Positions 21,948 through 31,794 of a stretch of DNA of 64,000 bases are shown here, in pieces; positions within the stretch are counted from its first letter, which is position 1, and every line of letters starts with the position of its first letter. Made by a program: the position numbers and the translations under genes. The notes under the pieces were generated by a model. It ran no database searches, had not been told where the DNA came from, and was given only the letters and a program-made list of their open reading frames with translations. Origin of the DNA: Jaapia argillacea MUCL 33604 (Eukaryota > Basidiomycota > Agaricomycetes > Jaapiales > Jaapiaceae); NCBI GenBank assembly GCA_000697665.1, contig KL197709.1, positions 1,673,791 through 1,737,790 of the forward strand, given 5' to 3'.

Positions 21948-22955
21948 ATGTCTTCTCCGACCCCCTCATCCAGCAGCGACCATATTCGTGCCGGCATCGC
22001 TGCTGCAGCCGAGCGCCGATCACAGGCTCAAATTCATGCTGATGAAGTTCTGCATGCTAAAGAGCATGAGCGGCGCCAAGAGTTCAGACGCCTCATTGAT
22101 CCTGGCATCTTTCGACCGAACTCGAAGGAGACAGCGTTAGCTTCGATTCAAGTAAATATTACTTGCTCTGCCGTCACTCTGTGGTCTTTCCAACAATTTG
22201 GTCCTACAGACCCTATCGACTCTCGCCGAGAATCTGCTGCGGGAACCTGATAATCCCAAGTTTCAGAAGTTCAAGCCCACAAACCATGTCATCAAACAAC
22301 GTCTGATCGACCCAAAGGGCGCTTTAGAGTACGCTGTTGGCGTCAGTTCTCCATTCCCATCTTCCAATCAACTTGTTGAGCTTACTGGCTTCTCTATAGC
22401 TCGGATTCCGCGCAGAGGTAGTTAGTCCCTTGTTGGCGCAGCTTGGAGTTGCTCAACTTTACGCTAGGTTGAAGATTTCCAGCCGTTTTACGTTTGGAAC
22501 AAACGATTTATGAGGGACTTACGCATCGGCGCAGAAGTCTTGAAAGAAGTGCTCCAACACAAGACAGAACAAGAAGACCGTATCAAGCAATGGAAGCGGG
22601 AAGAGAAGGCTGCAGCGGAAGCCGTCCAAAGAAATGTAAGCCAGTCAGGGCTTCACCGTCAGCCTGAGAGACATTGGGAGTTCATTGACCTTTCTCATAG
22701 GTGAAGCTCGCATTCATGGATGATCGTAAAACGAAACAGATACTGGACAAGAGGGAGCGAGAGCGACAACAAGCGAAAGCTGAGGCCGCTGCAAGAGGAT
22801 CTGTGTCACCTCCAGGGTCGCCAAATATGCAAGCGACATCCTTCGACTCCTTACCAGGGGCGGGGAACACCGTTGGCGGTCGCAGGTCGAGTACCAGTAG
22901 TGACCGTGGCCTTGGAAGTCCTCCACCATACCACAGTCTTTCAGGCGATGAGTGA
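21948..22955 (+). CDS. PUB-domain protein
   Basis: Exons are 21948-22151, 22210-22341, 22400-22417, 22468-22635 and 22701-22955, giving 258 residues. The central part, from about residue 69, matches the PUB fold: TLSTLAENLLREP, KFQKFKPTNHVIKQRL, GALEYAVGLGF and VEDFQPFYVWNKRF. PUB domains (as in peptide N-glycanase) bind the C-terminal tail of the AAA ATPase Cdc48/p97, so the protein is probably a Cdc48 cofactor; that is inference from the family. After the domain comes a charged coiled-coil-like stretch rich in Glu, Lys and Arg, then a Ser/Pro-rich tail ending HSLSGDE. No transglutaminase core or UBX domain is visible, so it is not a full peptide N-glycanase. The third exon is only 18 bases. 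It follows the lipase gene by 202 bases in the same direction. Confidence 0.85.
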
Positions 22956-23117: not shown

Positions 23118-26100
23118 CTAAGCGAAAGGATACTTTGACCGATCCAACTTGGACACAGGCCGAATTCGAGTTGGAGTTGAAGGAAGAGGAGGAGCGGGGG
23201 GCATGGGGAATTGCGCCAGGGCGGCCATGGTGATCTTAGTTGGAGGCTCCGGATCACTCAACCCAGCTATAACCAAAGATCGGTGAGCGACAGAGGTTAT
23301 GGTACGCCAGCGCCAGTACTCACAAGACGATGTGGAAGAATCGAATGCCCTCATTCGTTCTGAGATCAAACTATCTCGCCGCCGCGAAGGCCGCCTTGTT
23401 CCTTCCGACATCGAGTGGGCACGGTCGAGCGTGACTGGATTGATCAACGTGCTGTTTGGTCTTGAGGGCGAACCCATTGATTTAGCCCTAGACAGTGATG
23501 GGCCGTCGCCGTCGGTAGATTCTTGGACAGGCGAGAGGGGCGAGAGGTCTCTCCGTCGTTCGGTAAGTTGTGGAATCCCAGTACCAAACGCGACTGACGA
23601 AGGCCTCGGTCGACTTTGTGCGGGGCTCGAAGGAAGTCCGACAGGACGTTGCGTTGGAGGGCGGACAGACTTCGCCGAAACGGGACTGCCTTGCTCTGCA
23701 GTTTGCAAACTCATCGGGCGCTGACTGACAGTTCCCGAACGGGAACGAGCAACACGCGATATACTTGGAGCAGGGGACTCCAAAGCTGATGACAAGAATG
23801 AGACCTTCTTCTGGACAGGGGATTCCATGGAACCACTTGGCTGCCTCATTGGGGTAACTGGCTGCTGCCGAGCTGGAGATTTTGGAACGGAGGCGCTTTG
23901 CTTCAGCACGGAAGCCCGCAACTCGGAGTGCGTCCGCCTCCTCTTGGCCGGGGTGGACGATAGCGCTACAGCGTCTTGTTGTGGGCTTGTTTGGGAGGCG
24001 TTGATGGGAGGATCTGCAAAATATGTCAGTGGTACGCCTCATCGGATACATGATATGGTTGCCTCACAAATGTCGATAAGAGGATACCGTGTGGTGACCG
24101 TGGCTACTTGCCCATGAGACGATGCATGTGGCAGCTTGATAGGGGATAGTGACTTGCTGGTATCCGTGTTAGAGCCATCACACAGGACTCCGGGATAAAG
24201 CTCAAAGGACGGATAGATAGTTGTGTCTGACATTCAATGAGTTCAGGGTCATGATCCACGAAACCAACGACAACACTCACAAAGGCTGATGACAGGATAC
24301 CTAGCACTCAATGAAGTGGGCGTCTTGGTGGGTGAATCTGCGATAAGTGGCAGCGGTGGAGGATACAGGTCGAAATGAGGATAAACAGGAGGATCTATAT
24401 TATATGTTGAGCCAATTCAGCTGTATTGGAGCCGAATGGACACTCACAAATAACGATGAATGGATAAACGAAACTGGGGTAGGGTTTTTCAGATGGGGGT
24501 TGCCCGCCATGGCATAAATCCACTGGTTCACGGTGGGGGTCGGCTGAAAGGGATTGTATTCGAGGATACAAGTCGAAGTGAGGGTAGACAGGTTGATCTG
24601 ATACGTTTCAGCGGAGTAGAGGAGGAGACGCCAGAGAAAACTCACAAATAACGATGAATAGATAGGTGAAATTGGGGAAGGTCGTTTCTAAGACGGAGTG
24701 CTTTGGAGATGCAGGTAGAGCGGGGTACAGATCGAGTTGAGGATAAACAGGAGGATCTGAATGGAGAGTCAGAAAAATTCGAGGGCTAGGACGGTAAAGA
24801 ACTCATACATGGAGAGATCGAAGGGTACAAGCGTGGCAGCCGAACAACGACAGTCTTACTTTGCTTCAGCACGGAAACGCGCAACTCCGAGTGTGTCCGC
24901 CTCCTCTTGGTTGGGGTGAACGACACTCCAGCGTCGTGTTGAGGGCTTGCTTCTGAGGCGTTTATGGGAGGATCTGCAAAATATTTCAGTGACAAGGTTC
25001 AGATACACTACTGGGTCGGCTTACAAAGGTCGATAAGTGGATACCCTGTGGTGACCGAGTTGGCTGCTCGCTCATCCACCTCTGCATATGACGGCTTGGC
25101 AGGGGATAGTAATGCGCCACTATCTGCGTTGGAGCCATCACATAAGACACCGGGATAAAGCTCAAAAGACGGGTAGACAGCTTTGTCTGACGCTTCATCA
25201 GTATGGGACCATAATCCACCAAACTAATGACAACACTCACAAAGGCTAATGACAGGATATCTAGCACTCAGCAGGGCGGGCGTCTTGGTGGGAAGATCTG
25301 CGAGAAGTGGCGGCGACTGAGGGTAGAGGTCGAAGTGAGGGTACACAGGAGGATCTACATCGTCTGCTCAGCCAACTCAATCGGATTGGAGTTGAATGGT
25401 CGCTCACAAATAACGATGAACGGATAACTCAAACTGGGGTAGGTTTTTTCAGATGAGGGTCCGCGATGGTACTTATCCACCGGTTCGCGATGAGAATTAA
25501 CTGAAAGGGACTGTGCTTGAGGGTACAAGTCGAAGTGAGGGTAGAGCGGTTGATCTGATCCGCGTTAGCGAGGCTCAGGTGGAAATGCTAGAGAAAACTC
25601 ACAGATAACAATGTAGGGATAGTTGAAATTTGGGAAAGTCGTTTCTAAGTTTGCGTGTTTTGGAGGTGCAGGCAGAGCGTGGTACAGATCGAAGTGAGGA
25701 TAAGCAGGAGGATCTGAACGGAGGGTCAGAAAATTTTACGGGTTATGGGCGGCAAGAATTCTCACATGGAGAGATTGAAGGGTACAAGGGTGGCAGCCGA
25801 ACAATGACAGTCTTGTCGACAGCGGGAACCACTTTTAATGCCGATGATGCGGGGGCTAAGGATCGAGGTAGCGAGGGCACCGGGGGGATCTCACGACTCA
25901 GTCCCGAGCGAGTGAGAGGAGGAGGAGATTTGGATCTGACGGACGGACGACGACTCGACTGAGATACAGCAAATCGCGACGTGACTCGCGTGGTAGCATT
26001 GGCGCGAGGAGTGGTCTTTGAATTGGGGATTTCCAAAGTCACTGAGGGATAAATGTCAAGATGAGGGTACACCGAGTCATCTATGAATAGCTGATAAATA

Positions 26101-29100
26101 ATAGTGTGGGGTGAAATATACAGTGTCCCACTCACATAGTTTTATCATTGGGTAGGAGGGAGTTTCAGAACGGAGACTTGATGAACGCGACGAGACGGGT
26201 CTTTTTGACGAAGCTGGATCTTTAGAAGTAATCCAATTATTACAAAGAGGAAAATGAGGACAGATATCGTGCATACAGAGGTCGAAGTGGGGATATCCAT
26301 CGTGAGGGTCACCAGCAGGAGGACTAGCCCCGATTGCCACTGGGGGATATATATCAAACGCGGGATACACAGCCGGATCTGTTCGTTGGATACGGTCAAT
26401 AGACATTCCGGAAGCATTGACAAGGTACATACAAATATTGAGTCTTGGATAAGCCGCGCTCTGCGCAATTGGATGAACTTCATGGGATTCCGTAGCATAG
26501 AGAGAGTCCAACGATTCGGGTCGTGTAGGTTGTGCAGGTGGGTAAATGGATATCAAGTTCCAGGGATATACGTTAGAATCTAATGCGGAAAATTGTCAGC
26601 ACAATTCGCCACGACGAAACGTATGTGAACATACAAATACGAAGACTAGGATATGCGGCCTCCAGAGAAACGGAGACCTGAGTTTTTGGAGTTTCTTGGA
26701 CATGGGATGAAACACTCGGATATAGCTCAAAATGTGGGTACGCAACAGGATCTACAAGTGAAATGCTCAGCGCAATCATGGCAGTGAGGAGGCAAAGGAA
26801 CACCAACAGATTTCAAGGAACGGATACTGCAGTTTTCTGTTTAGAGAGTTTGAGTCATTTGCAGACGGAACCACTGAACCCTCAACGACAGCTGGATAGA
26901 TCTCCAAATGAGGATACCCTCGTGTACCTGTGGAGAAACACGTGAATTCATGCAAAGAAGTGGCACAGGTAGATAGTAAGCTTACTGGTCTTAGTCGATG
27001 AAGGGCTCTCCGTCGGTAACCCAACATAGGGCCACACGTGATTCCAGCCACTGGGACGAGTGGAACCCTGCACACGATAAGGCCAAACCTGATCCCATGG
27101 CAAAGCTTGCGATACGAACTTCGATGATGAACCTTCCACAATTTCACGTGTGACAGCGGCTGCCAAAAGTGGCTGCGACGATGGCTCAGGTGCATCACCA
27201 GTTCGTGAAAGGTCTCGGCGATATGGCCACACATGATTCCAGGGAGCAGGTGAAGTCGACGTGGATCCATTATGGTATGGCCAGACTTGCTGCCATGGAG
27301 CGGCAATCGGTTCAGGTGCATCCTCAGATTCGGGCGAGGAAACAGAAGCTCGTTTCTGAACTGTACCATATGGCCAAACGTGACTCCAAACAGCAGGAGA
27401 CACTGTCCCAACCGCCGATCTCGCCGTATACGGCCAAACTTGAGGCCAAGGAGCGTCGACCATTCCTGGAGCAGGCTGTTCGACCCGACGATATGGCCAA
27501 ACTTGGCTCCAAGGTTCACCGCTCCGGGAATCAACAACGTTTGCTGACGAAGATGATGCCTTGGAGTAAGGCCACACCTGCTTCCAAGGTCCAGGTGCCC
27601 GCGACTTGTCATTCTGGTATGGCCAAACTTGATTCCAAGGACCATCCACCGAGCCATTCTCCTCCTCGGATTCTTCTGAAGCAGCGGTATAAGGCCACAC
27701 ATGACCCCACGCCACATAACCTCCCTGAACCTCCATCCGATACGGCCAAATCCCCCTCCAAGACCTCCCAGGCCCACCCTGATAACCAGGCGAAACCATC
27801 CCCCACCTCTCCTCCTCATCCTGCTCTCCCTCAACTGACATCTCCATCTCCCCTTCAAAGGATCTCTCCCCAATATCCGGCGTCCTCACAAACTCCCTCC
27901 CAACAGGACTAGGCGGGTAACTGGTGGGTGGTCCCCACGAAGTAGCAGTACTCGGCGTCCCAGGTCGACTAAACATACACCTATACGCCAAATCCACACT
28001 CCTCGCATACCTCGGCTGGGGTGCAAAGGGAGAAGGAGGGTAAGAAAGAGGTGGGCCCCAACTTGTAGCTGTGGAAGGAGTGGGCGGCACGTCTTCCAAC
28101 ATCCTTTGTCCGAGATCAGGTGAAGGCACCCTCGAAATACTTGAGATTTCAGAGTAGATCTCCTCGTCGTAGTCTGGTGGACCAAAGGAGGTACAGATGG
28201 ATGGGGTCAGACATACAGATCCTTGTAACCTCCTATCCAAATGGACAGAAAGAACCCGTTCAGAATCCATAGGTGACTCGGGGTCCATCTCAGTCCTAGG
28301 TCCAGCACTCGATATCGACCAAGTAAATTCATCCAAATTCAACTCGCTCTCGACACCAGCCTCCGCAAGGCCGTGGGGAGGAAGAGGAGCGTCATCAGGC
28401 TTGACGGGAGGCGACAAGGTCACGCTATTCGGCATATTGGCAGGATCAAGACTGGTTTGACCTGTAGCCTCTACCAACGGACTGGGAACCAACGAAGCGC
28501 TCGCCCTCCACGTCTTTACTCGTTTCTCCAAGTCGATGTTTAGGTTTTTGGCTGACTGGGGTTCTTCTTCTTGGACTATGGGAGATAGGACTGGTGCGAT
28601 GGGTTGTAGTACGGGTGGGAGTCGAGCGGGAGCTTGAGCAGGGGGTGGAGGTGGAGGTTCAAAATACTCTTGTCGACGAGGAGAGATAGCTGGTTGTGAC
28701 ATTCCAGCACCATACCCCGACCTATTCGAAACCGAATCAAAGCGATCCAGAAGCGATAGTTTCCGAGGAATATGTCTTGGTCGAACGGGATGCGTAACCG
28801 ATTCCTCTTCCTGCGGCTGTTGCTGCTGTTCCTCAGCCTCTCCAAACGTAGTCGTCCTACTATCTCCCCTCAAATGCTGCGGCTGGGATTGGGACATGGA
28901 AGGATGTCTCGAGTGAGAGATTGAAATGGGCATATCCAATCCTTCCAGCGGCCTTTGAGCAACAGCAACCCAAGCATCATACCACCTAGCCTTCCTCAGA
29001 TCAATGTCAAATTCGATCCGACCACCGATAGGTAATTGAGTTGCTGTCATTGAAACATGCGTTTGCGGAGGAGGCGAACGGAGCGGGTCGAATAGGTGAC

Positions 29101-29734
29101 CCCAGAGTGATTGCCATGATTCGTCCGAAATGCGTGGTGTGAAGGTGAAACCGGCTTCGGAGATGTGGAGGTATAGACATAAGCCCGCCGTACTTGGGAA
29201 ACTGAACTCGCGAGCGATGGCGGTAAGTTGGGCGTACATCTATCAAACGCAAAATACAATGCGGGACGAAGGGCCGAGTAAGGGACTGGAAACGACCTAG
29301 AGTCATATAGTGAAACGTACCGTTGGGAAAAGGGGCATCAGGATACCATGCTGGAGTCGGTGAGATGGGCCGGAAGATAGAGTTGGACCTAACGCGTTTT
29401 GCTCGCGAGGAAGGCTTTCGGGTGGAATGACTACGACTAGCCAGCGAGTTGTTCGGTCCATTGGTCTCTCGCGCAAAGTGGGTTGGGGAGGAGTGTTCCT
29501 ATACGACAGTGTCGACACCTTCCTAAAGCGGCTTCCCGCAGTGTCCAGTGGAGGAGGGGTGGACATGCGGGGGATTGACTGATCTAAGTCCATTGGGAGT
29601 CGCCTGGAAGTGGACGGCTGGGGCGTAGCCAGTAAATCCGAGTCTGTCTCTGGGGGTGTGAGAGGGTGGACGGGGCGAGGGACATCCATAGGCAAATGTC
29701 TGTGAAAGGGTGTTGTTGAAGTAAGCCGGGACAT
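23118..29734 (-). CDS. Large aromatic-proline repeat protein (WPY and YPxxxIY arrays)
   Basis: Nineteen exons on the minus strand: 29321-29734, 26986-29239, 26808-26927, 26635-26751, 26433-26579, 26277-26378, 26136-26219, 25766-26080, 25603-25713, 25408-25554, 25241-25354, 25025-25186, 24809-24973, 24646-24756, 24448-24597, 24281-24394, 24068-24226, 23324-24013 and 23118-23266, giving 1874 residues. The only part that looks folded is at about 90-235, including PLFPTMYAQLTAIAREF, WQSLWGHLFD and GGRIEFDIDLRKARWYDAW. I half recognise this as a conserved fungal domain but cannot name it. Then come three TPSxxTSxGPP units, eleven W-x-x-[VI]-W-P-Y units (about 633-880), and an exon-encoded array of Y-P-x-x-x-[IL]-Y units (about 890-1600). 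The C-terminus is a basic Ser/Pro-rich tail. No signal peptide or membrane segment is seen. The last intron (57 bases) is in frame and could be retained. The function is unknown; a multivalent scaffold binding one partner repeatedly is an inference. Confidence 0.85.
23898..24857 (-). repeat. Tandem duplication of five exons, copy 1
   Basis: This block contains the end of exon 13, exons 14-17 and the beginning of exon 18 of the repeat-protein gene. Exon starts match those of the neighbouring block at a constant offset of 957-960 bases, and intron positions and much of the intron sequence match too. It ends at the word KQS in exon 18. Confidence 0.85.
24013..26927 (-). repeat. Exon array, each exon one Y-P-x-x-x-[IL]-Y repeat unit
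   Basis: Fifteen consecutive exons (26808-26927 down to 24068-24226) all begin and end in phase 1, and every junction between them splits a Tyr codon as T|AT or T|AC. A typical exon begins PPVYPHFDLYP, has a variable spacer and ends in a second copy such as YPFIVI whose final Tyr is shared with the next exon. Individual exons are 84-315 bases. I count roughly 28 copies of the motif. Two degenerate versions (YPSISPY, YLFIVIY) are included. Confidence 0.88.
24858..25814 (-). repeat. Tandem duplication of five exons, copy 2
   Basis: This block contains the end of exon 8, exons 9-12 and the beginning of exon 13. The seam with copy 1 lies inside exon 13, where a piece homologous to the start of exon 18 (SELRVSVLKQS) is fused to a piece homologous to the end of exon 8 (KTVVVRLPRLYPSISP). 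Exon 13 is therefore a chimera made by the duplication. Confidence 0.85.
27018..27765 (-). repeat. Coding array of eleven W-x-x-[VI]-W-P-Y motifs
   Basis: Within exon 2 of the repeat-protein gene the motif occurs eleven times, for example PWNQVWPY, PWKQVWPY, PWSQVWPY, PWDQVWPY and GWNHVWPY. Spacers are 6 to about 40 residues, rich in Ser, Glu and Pro. The DNA of the motif is partly conserved, so on the plus strand it shows as a recurring TATGGCCA/TAAGGCCA-type word. The spacers are unrelated to each other, which argues for selection on the motif rather than very recent copying. Confidence 0.9.
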
Positions 29735-30218: not shown

Positions 30219-31794
30219 ATGGAGGCTAAACTATCCCAATTCTCCTCCCTCTCCCAAAAAGACAAAGGCCCTGCATACATCTCCCTCCTCTCAGAAATCC
30301 TAGCCCGCTCAGACCAATCCACGATCCCACAAGACATCCACATCCTAGTCGATAACGTCGTCAATCAAGATAGCGTCGGTCTCGTGGTCGGAAGACAAGT
30401 TCTGTCTGAACTAGTGAAAGCTCTCGGGGATGGAGCGATCAAAGATACAGAACTGAGGAAGAGAATCGTAGAGGATACACTCGATGTTGCCCAACCTAGA
30501 GTAGTTAGCTACGAAGAGCCAGTGAGTGCAATCCGTGTATCGACAGTGTTCAAACCTAACCATTGATCAACGCAGGTAAGCCAACTGAGATTCCAACTCG
30601 CAGATATCCTCGAAGGAGAGGAAGAATGGAGCGAAGCCGCTCGCGTCCTAATGGGCATCTCCCTCGAGTCAACTCAACGGTACGTCCCCCCCATTCTCAA
30701 TCTACCATAATCCCCCCAACGCCCCACATACAGCTCAGCACCAGACTCCCTCAAACTCTCCATCTACATCCGCATAGTCCGTCTCCTCCTCGAAGACGAA
30801 GACTCCATCCAAGCCGAAACTTACTACAACCGCGCAGCCCTCATAGCCCACACAGCCACAGACAAAGAAACCCAACTAGCTTTCAAACTATGTCAAGCCC
30901 GCATCATGGATTATGGCAGGAGGTTCTTGGAAGCTGCACAACGGTACCATGAATTAAGTTGGGTCGCAGAGATCGACGAGGACGAGAGGAGACACATGCT
31001 GTACGTATCTCAACACCCAACCTGCCCCCATCCATCCATTCAAACATCCATCTTCTCAGATCAGCAGCAGTAACATGCGCAGTCCTAGCCCCAGCAGGAC
31101 CAAACCGTTCCCGCGTCCTCGCCTCTCTCTGCAGGGACGACCGAACTCCTTCCCTCCCATCCCACAACATCCTCTCCAAAATGTTCCTCGACCGCATCCT
31201 CCGTCCAACAGAAGTCCAATCCTTCGAAACAACCCTCAAACAACACCAACTCGCAAAAATCACCTTATCATCAAACGATCGTCTCGCTTCCGTTCACGTT
31301 GACGACGACGATGGTGATGGTGCGGAGAGTACGAGTAAGAGAACGGGACCGTCGACTGTGTTGGACAGGGCGGTGTTGGAACATAACCTCCTGGCTAGTT
31401 CAAAGATTTACAACAACATCACTTTTCGAGGTTTAGGTGCCCTGTTGGACCTTACACCTGGAGCGGCAGAGACGATGGCTAGAAAGATGATCGAGCAGGG
31501 TCGACTGAAGGGTTCCATCGACCAAGTCGAGAAACTGATATGGTTTGATACCAAGGAGGAGGAAGAGGCACAGGGCAAAGCCGGTGGCCTTGGGGACGTT
31601 GAGCAAGATATCGAGGACACTGGAGCTCCACACACAAAGAGGTGGGATATGCAGATTCGAATGACAGCTGCAGAAGTAAGTTCCCCATGTCAAACCGTGT
31701 CCACTCACGCACTTAACAATCTGCTCAGGTTGAATCGATCGTTCAACACTTGTCGGAGAAAGGTCTCCTGAGGACAACAGCAGTCGGTGCATAA
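30219..31794 (+). CDS. CSN4: COP9 signalosome complex subunit 4
   Basis: Exons are 30219-30521, 30576-30679, 30734-31000, 31060-31675 and 31729-31794, giving 451 residues. The COP9 signalosome removes Nedd8 from cullins and so controls cullin-RING ubiquitin ligases; subunit 4 is a scaffold PCI protein. The N-terminal TPR-like helical repeats include VSQLRFQLADILEGEEEW, the TYYNRA segment and MDYGRRFLEAAQRYHELSW. The PCI winged helix includes VLEHNLLASSKIYNNITF, LGALLDLTPGAAETMARKM and GRLKGSIDQVEKLIWF. The last exon encodes a short helix ending LLRTTAVGA. An acidic insert (DDDDGDGAE) and an acidic stretch before the final helix make the protein longer than the animal subunit of about 406 residues. 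The fungus therefore has at least part of a full signalosome. The gene is convergent with CTK1, 136 bases away. Confidence 0.95.

Follow-up and report, generated by a model that had tools for sequence, protein, structure and literature searches.

The DNA analysed here (the window) is a 64,000-nucleotide stretch of contig KL197709.1 from Jaapia argillacea MUCL 33604 (assembly GCA_000697665.1, positions 1,673,791 to 1,737,790), and the gene of interest lies on its minus strand, from position 29734 down to 23118 (Table 1). An earlier note on this DNA proposed a 19-exon gene for a 1874-residue protein built from two kinds of aromatic-proline repeat. Spliced translation of the 19 exons returned this product at these coordinates, with a single terminal stop and no internal stops in a coding sequence of 5625 bases. 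All 18 introns begin with GT and end with AG. Intron 1 is 81 nt long and introns 2-18 are 48-58 nt.

Two arrays of motifs follow each other along the protein. The W motif, W-x-x-[VI]-W-P-Y, occurs 11 times, the number given in the earlier note, and every copy is in exon 2; 2000 shuffles of the protein produced none (mean 0.0, maximum 0). The codons for the proline at position 6 are mixed (CCA 5, CCT 3, CCG 2, CCC 1), valine is written in three synonymous forms, and the residue before the first tryptophan is proline in seven of the 11 copies. The Y motif in its strict form, YP...[IL]Y, is present 24 times, against a mean of 0.06 and a maximum of 2 in 2000 shuffles. Four near-matches, namely YPSISPY (twice), YLFIVIY and YPWNLISIY, raise the total to 28, as the earlier note had estimated. 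The YPWNLISIYPP variant of exon 5 contains P-W-N, which also appears in two of the W motifs (PWNQVWPY and PWNHVWPY) and might connect the Y and W types.

The Y motifs are not equal units, as most of them form doublets of two different halves. The 28 motifs resolve into 12 doublets and four singles, which lie at amino acids (aa) 894, 1046, 1357 and 1590. The distance from one Y motif to the next is exactly 10 residues in 12 of the 27 cases and 24-95 residues in the remaining 15. The pattern used to collect the doublets prescribes no more than Y1, P/L2, Y7, Y11 and P12; at the free positions the 12 pairs compare as follows. I/L stands at position 4 in 12/12 and at position 6 in 10/12, V/A/L/I at position 10 in 12/12, F/L at 14 in 11/12, D/E at 15 in 11/12 and L/I at 16 in 12/12; the doublet ends with Y at 17 (11/12) and P at 18 (10/12). 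The resulting 18-residue consensus is Y-P-x-[IL]-x-[IL]-Y-x-x-[VAIL]-Y-P-x-[FL]-[DE]-[LI]-Y-P. Its first (A) half has I/L at the fourth place, whereas the second (B) half mostly has F there (9/12), followed by D/E.

The doublets are tied to the exon structure in a uniform way. Introns 2-18 are all in phase 1, and 15 of the 18 introns (from exons 3/4 to exons 17/18) cut a tyrosine codon after its first base. This tyrosine is residue 7, either of the first half of a doublet or, in three cases out of the four singles, of a motif that stands alone. Each of exons 3-17 has a length that is a multiple of three, so the reading frame would be kept if one exon were skipped or copied. After skipping or duplication of any of exons 4-17, the new junction would spell the tyrosine again and rebuild Y-[PL]-x-x-x-x-Y. 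The doublet layout, the uniform introns and the block duplication described below are additions to the first reading of the sequence.

Part of the Y array is a tandem duplication of a block of about 0.96 kb. The four exon pairs are 78.0-82.9% identical and the five intron pairs 69.2-74.1% identical. An older duplication of an exon with its intron is visible between exons 14/15 and 15/16 (70.6% over 143 columns). Exon 13, which sits at the breakpoint of the duplication, is a chimera: its head is similar to exon 18 (KRRRTHSELR...VLKQS), its end to exon 8 (KTVVVRLP.LYPSISP). The basic stretch KRRRTHSELR.SVLKQS, found in both copies (23324-24013 and 24809-24973), differs by one residue between them and is possibly a nuclear-import or kinase site.

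The two copies of the block allow the motifs and the linkers to be compared within one gene. For motif codons the synonymous divergence (dS) between copies A and B is 0.392 and the nonsynonymous divergence (dN) is 0.037, giving a dN/dS of 0.10; for linker codons dS is 0.399, dN is 0.209 and dN/dS is 0.52. The nonsynonymous changes number 6.0 over 164.2 sites in the motifs and 65.0 over 356.7 sites in the linkers. The motif mask derives from the motif pattern and may therefore favour conserved sites, but masks taken from either copy alone, which require no conservation in the other, gave the same picture (ratios 0.08 and 0.10). When the mask was shifted circularly, none of 234 shifts reached as low a ratio of motif to linker dN. 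The test covers a single pair of blocks within this gene, and in it selection has kept the motifs since the duplication while the linkers changed more freely. The multivalent function that the earlier note proposed for the motifs gains indirect support from this difference in dN at similar dS.

Table 1 Features of the repeat-protein gene, in window coordinates
Feature	Position	Strand	Basis
Whole coding region, 19 exons, 1874 codons + stop	23118..29734	-	Spliced translation, listed splice sites
Exon 1, aa 1-138, Pro/Ser/Thr/Arg-rich, less certain	29321..29734	-	Open frame, GTACGT donor, codon score
Exon 2, aa 139-889, with the W array behind a linker and the N-terminal domain candidate	26986..29239	-	Open reading frame
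N-terminal domain candidate, aa 139-235	28949..29239	-	Relatives not found in Pfam, PDB sequences, viral contigs, GTDB
W array, aa 632-876, with W-x-x-[VI]-W-P-Y 11 times at intervals of 17-48 residues	27026..27760	-	Counts, shuffles, spacings
Exon 3, single Y motif (aa 894) + doublet 1 A half	26808..26927	-	Spliced model, motif positions
Exon 4, doublet 1 B half + doublet 2 A half	26635..26751	-	Spliced model, motif positions
Exon 5, doublet 2 B half (YPWNLISIYP variant) + doublet 3 A half	26433..26579	-	Spliced model
Exon 6, doublet 3 B half + single motif (aa 1046)	26277..26378	-	Spliced model, motif positions
Exon 7, doublet 4 A half	26136..26219	-	Spliced model, motif positions
Exon 8, doublet 4 B half, linker, doublet 5 A half	25766..26080	-	Spliced model
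Tandem duplication copy A	24859..25814	-	blastn, 79.1% over 966 alignment columns vs copy B
Exon 9, doublet 5 B half + doublet 6 A half	25603..25713	-	Spliced model, motif positions
Exon 10, doublet 6 B half + doublet 7 A half	25408..25554	-	Spliced model, motif positions
Exon 11, doublet 7 B half + doublet 8 A half	25241..25354	-	Spliced model, motif positions
Exon 12, doublet 8 B half + single motif (aa 1357)	25025..25186	-	Spliced model, motif positions
Exon 13, duplication-breakpoint chimera, doublet 9 A half	24809..24973	-	Spliced model, block alignment
Tandem duplication copy B	23896..24857	-	blastn vs copy A
Exon 14, copy of exon 9, 82.9% DNA identity	24646..24756	-	Block alignment
Exon 15, copy of exon 10, 81.6%	24448..24597	-	Block alignment
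Exon 16, copy of exon 11, 81.6%	24281..24394	-	Block alignment
Exon 17, exon 12 copy (78.0%) with the B half of doublet 12 and a single motif (aa 1590)	24068..24226	-	Block alignment
Exon 18, Ser/Pro/Arg-rich tail with KRRRTHSELR	23324..24013	-	Spliced model, composition
Exon 19, C-terminus + stop	23118..23266	-	Spliced model

Exon 1 is the least certain part of the predicted gene model. Its codon bias is weak: its own frame ranks top in all eight sliding windows within the exon, with scores near zero (-2.8 to 1.2) and a lead over other frames of just 0.1 in one window. Another frame, which contains the protein-like PDAPFPNG, was set aside, as by-eye pairings gave no junction to the frame of exon 2 and the ATG frame scores better in 8/8 windows, by 0.1 in one. 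An ATG opens exon 2 directly after the acceptor site, so a 1736-aa product that lacks exon 1 would also be possible.

For the possibly folded N-terminal domain of the earlier note, with the start of exon 2 (aa 139-235) as candidate, our analyses speak neither for nor against a fold. The candidate has no match in Pfam or among PDB sequences (up to E 10), and none of the pattern matches in viral contigs (3) or in GTDB prokaryote genomes (39) was confirmed as a relative. As these two collections are not fungal, missing relatives there say little. A single-sequence AlphaFold2 model was of no use (mean predicted local distance difference test score, pLDDT, 39.7; predicted template modelling score, pTM, 0.30). 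Judged from composition alone, the 1874-aa protein may be mostly disordered, and the linkers between the motifs are rich in serine and proline.

A search of the J. argillacea genome (43.7 Mb, 95 contigs) with the exon 2 protein returned only itself, the next match standing at E 0.156 and 28% identity, and a paralogue was not found. A 196-aa stretch of the Y region matched only exons of the same gene. A DNA pattern approximating YPx[FL][DE][LI]YP had 11 matches in the whole genome, ten of them in the gene, against none for the reversed control; around the outside match (contig 11, L040) there is no second full in-frame motif within 1.5 kb, and it looks like chance. The corresponding W pattern, which omits GTG valine codons, had nine matches, seven in the gene. 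Its reversed control had 16, so the two outside matches are at chance level and only the clustering is meaningful.

No Pfam family scored above the cut-off with exons 1, 2 and 18-19 (read through the intron) or with the spliced arrays; exons 18-19 gave two weak matches below it (E 0.05 and 0.33). Both arrays had zero matches in the PDB sequence search at E up to 10. A literature search for six exact octapeptides of the protein gave no match. By title and abstract, no paper retrieved with WPY terms concerns a fungal repeat protein and none on symmetric exons concerns fungi; no paper matched the YP-repeat terms at three of six. The view in the earlier note that no described family has such a layout agrees with the Pfam, PDB sequence and literature searches, fungal proteomes being outside their scope. 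The protein is real, striking and undescribed in the sources searched (Pfam, PDB sequences, literature and non-fungal collections).

We lean towards the reading that the gene encodes a long, mostly disordered multivalent scaffold with repeated docking motifs. The 11 W motifs and, C-terminal to them, the 12 Y-P doublets and four single Y motifs would be docking sites on flexible linkers, and one chain might gather many copies of a partner protein. Repeated docking is suggested by the many motif copies that selection has kept on freer linkers. The Y array probably grew through duplication of exons and blocks of exons that share one phase-1 intron position, which would let motif copies be gained without loss of frame.

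The regular aromatic motifs on Ser/Pro-rich linkers would also suit self-adhesive stickers that mainly drive condensation in the absence of a specific partner. Stickers should tolerate scrambled order, however, and here the motifs retain their pairing at exactly 10 residues as well as a phenylalanine and an acidic residue specific to the B half, and this speaks for a shaped binding site; we consider the sticker explanation unlikely. Most improbable in our view is a neutral array in a dispensable tail, expanding as a repeat under low constraint. The block duplication and the fairly free change of the linkers (dN/dS 0.52) are what such an array would predict, but the motif dN/dS of 0.10 with mixed synonymous codons argues against it, as do 15 consecutive symmetric exons without a frameshift or stop. 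What would bind the Y array is a guess: most likely a YP reader linked to the endosomal sorting complexes required for transport (ESCRT), either a V domain of the Bro1/PalA type or a penta-EF-hand protein of the ALG-2/Pef1 type. Since the Bro1/PalA and ALG-2 motifs leave conserved positions undemanded, a distinct kind of reader or a third partner has the same odds as the two named classes combined. With rather low probability, a V domain of the Bro1/PalA (Rim20) type would bind the Y doublets as its ligands, and the protein would concentrate ESCRT-III-linked adaptors. In the PalA/Bro1 ligand pattern 1-3 residues separate YP from L/I, and the Y motifs conform to it: I/L stands at position 4 in 12/12 A halves and Pro at position 2 in 11 of them, and YPxxx[LI] fits 12/12 B halves. 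Both forms are in excess (YPx[LI], 21 against a mean of 1.48 in 1000 shuffles; YPxxx[LI], 27 against 1.47). The genome holds five V-domain family matches, on contigs 12 and 13. As far as the available text of the cited papers goes, here and below, the YPxL(I) motif is established in a fungus, where PalA binds PacC via two such motifs flanking the protease site (PMC4832277), and ALIX binds YPXnL or YPxL (PMC10532540, PMC4276913). Against this reader, PacC as the fungal client has two motifs and not 28, and the proline after the B half (10/12) and the fixed 10-residue pairing are left unexplained.

Docking of an ALG-2/Pef1-type penta-EF-hand protein, which would make a calcium-tuned hub at membranes, is a possibility of similarly modest weight. 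The type 1 motif of ALG-2 is PXYPXnYP with n = 4, and the YP-x4-YP spacing of the doublets equals it (PMC3397542, PMC5037681). In 1000 shuffles YPx4YP averages 0.09 and PxYPx4YP 0.02, against 20 and 6 in the protein. Two ALG-2-type penta-EF-hand genes, judged from exon fragments, lie on contigs 5 (L051) and 14 (L052), human ALG-2 being the top-ranked solved structure for the fragments of both (E 6e-21 and 7e-20). Both keep an FGY stretch and a DGWIQ-x-N-Y stretch, whose tyrosine would correspond to human Tyr180. The protein on contig 5 has an N-terminal extension rich in Pro/Gly/Tyr. V-domain and penta-EF-hand genes are widespread and expected in many fungi. Toxoplasma GRA8, which according to a preprint binds ALG-2 and carries three tandem binding elements, is a precedent for tandem sites. 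If an ALG-2/Pef1-type reader were the true partner, membrane integrity and polarised growth, which fungal Pef1 proteins guard (PMC13232526), would be the setting of the protein. PxPGF, the type 2 motif, has 0 copies in the protein. Against this reader, PMC5037681 states that ALG-2-type motifs have not come to light in ALIX and Sec31A homologues from yeast and invertebrates. Several further points weigh against the scaffold itself as well as its named readers. Neither class accounts for every conserved motif position: YPxnL leaves Tyr-7 unexplained, and the ALG-2 type 1 motif leaves the hydrophobic positions 4 and 6. PPYP is the strong ALG-2 form and PXYP binds less well (PMC5037681), yet the strict core PPYPx4YP fits 0/20 of the YPx4YP sites and the relaxed PXYP-x4-YP just 6/20. 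The calcium dependence is reversed in yeast, where Pef1p of S. cerevisiae binds Sec31p solely in its calcium-free form (PMC3394733). As reader genes are so widespread, their presence in this genome is weak evidence and does not discriminate. Yxx[LIMFV] is also in excess (59 against a mean of 19.25 in 1000 shuffles), so excess alone singles out no one reader. The case for motif conservation, finally, comes from a single internal duplication.

For the W motif we can name no fitting reader, and the partner of the W array probably differs from that of the Y array. The scaffold might then be a two-client hub, in which an ESCRT-linked protein reads the 18-residue YP doublet as a new binding element, the W array recruits a second client and symmetric exons 4-17 set the valence by being gained, lost or skipped; we regard this fuller picture as quite unlikely.

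If the doublets are real docking sites, the gene would be a clean system for the evolution of binding valence, as symmetric exons would encode how many sites there are, site and linker can be told apart and selection is readable inside one gene. The fungal YP readers could gain from it a ligand class so far missing. The Pfam matches in the window include Tra1, ORC4 and PCI. A PCI-domain gene (30953-31768, plus strand), presumably CSN4-like, lies head-to-head with the repeat-protein gene, and a PUB-domain match just below the Pfam cut-off (E 7.8e-8; 22156-22422, plus strand) lies tail-to-tail with it.

Among known systems, the clients of PalA/Rim20 of the PacC/Rim101 type resemble this protein in being fungal and carrying YPx[LI] motifs, and I/L is rightly placed in 12/12 of the A halves here. 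Unlike PacC, the protein has 28 Y motifs, mostly in fixed doublets with a second tyrosine, and no zinc-finger match in Pfam. With the ALG-2 ligands ALIX, PLSCR3 and GRA8 it shares, as far as these are described in the available text, the YP-x4-YP spacing and a Pro-rich setting, with tandem elements as in GRA8. It differs from them in the absent PPYP core and PxPGF motif, the conserved hydrophobic residues between the YP pairs and the far greater number of copies. The tyrosine sorting signal YxxPhi, read by adaptor protein (AP) complexes, demands a tyrosine and a hydrophobic residue at +3 and leaves the middle free. In 24/24 strict Y motifs the residue at +3, on which the strict pattern sets no demand, is F/I/L; the constant proline at +1 and the second tyrosine are not explained by such a signal. 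The Atg8-interacting motif is WxxL/I/V with acidic neighbours, and its core resembles that of the W motifs, where the search pattern itself demands it; W..[LIV] occurs 18 times in the protein against a mean of 5.87 and a maximum of 16 in 1000 shuffles. The conserved W-P-Y that follows is not accounted for by it. The clathrin W-box, PWxxW, has 0 matches in the protein, the spacing of the W motif being W-x-x-x-W. FG nucleoporins and the like are multivalent scaffolds of short linear motifs, and the repeat protein is similar to them in its many short motif copies on what would be disordered linkers. In contrast to those scaffolds, each of its doublets is crossed by an intron at one fixed codon, and its two motif types, unlike each other, form separate arrays.

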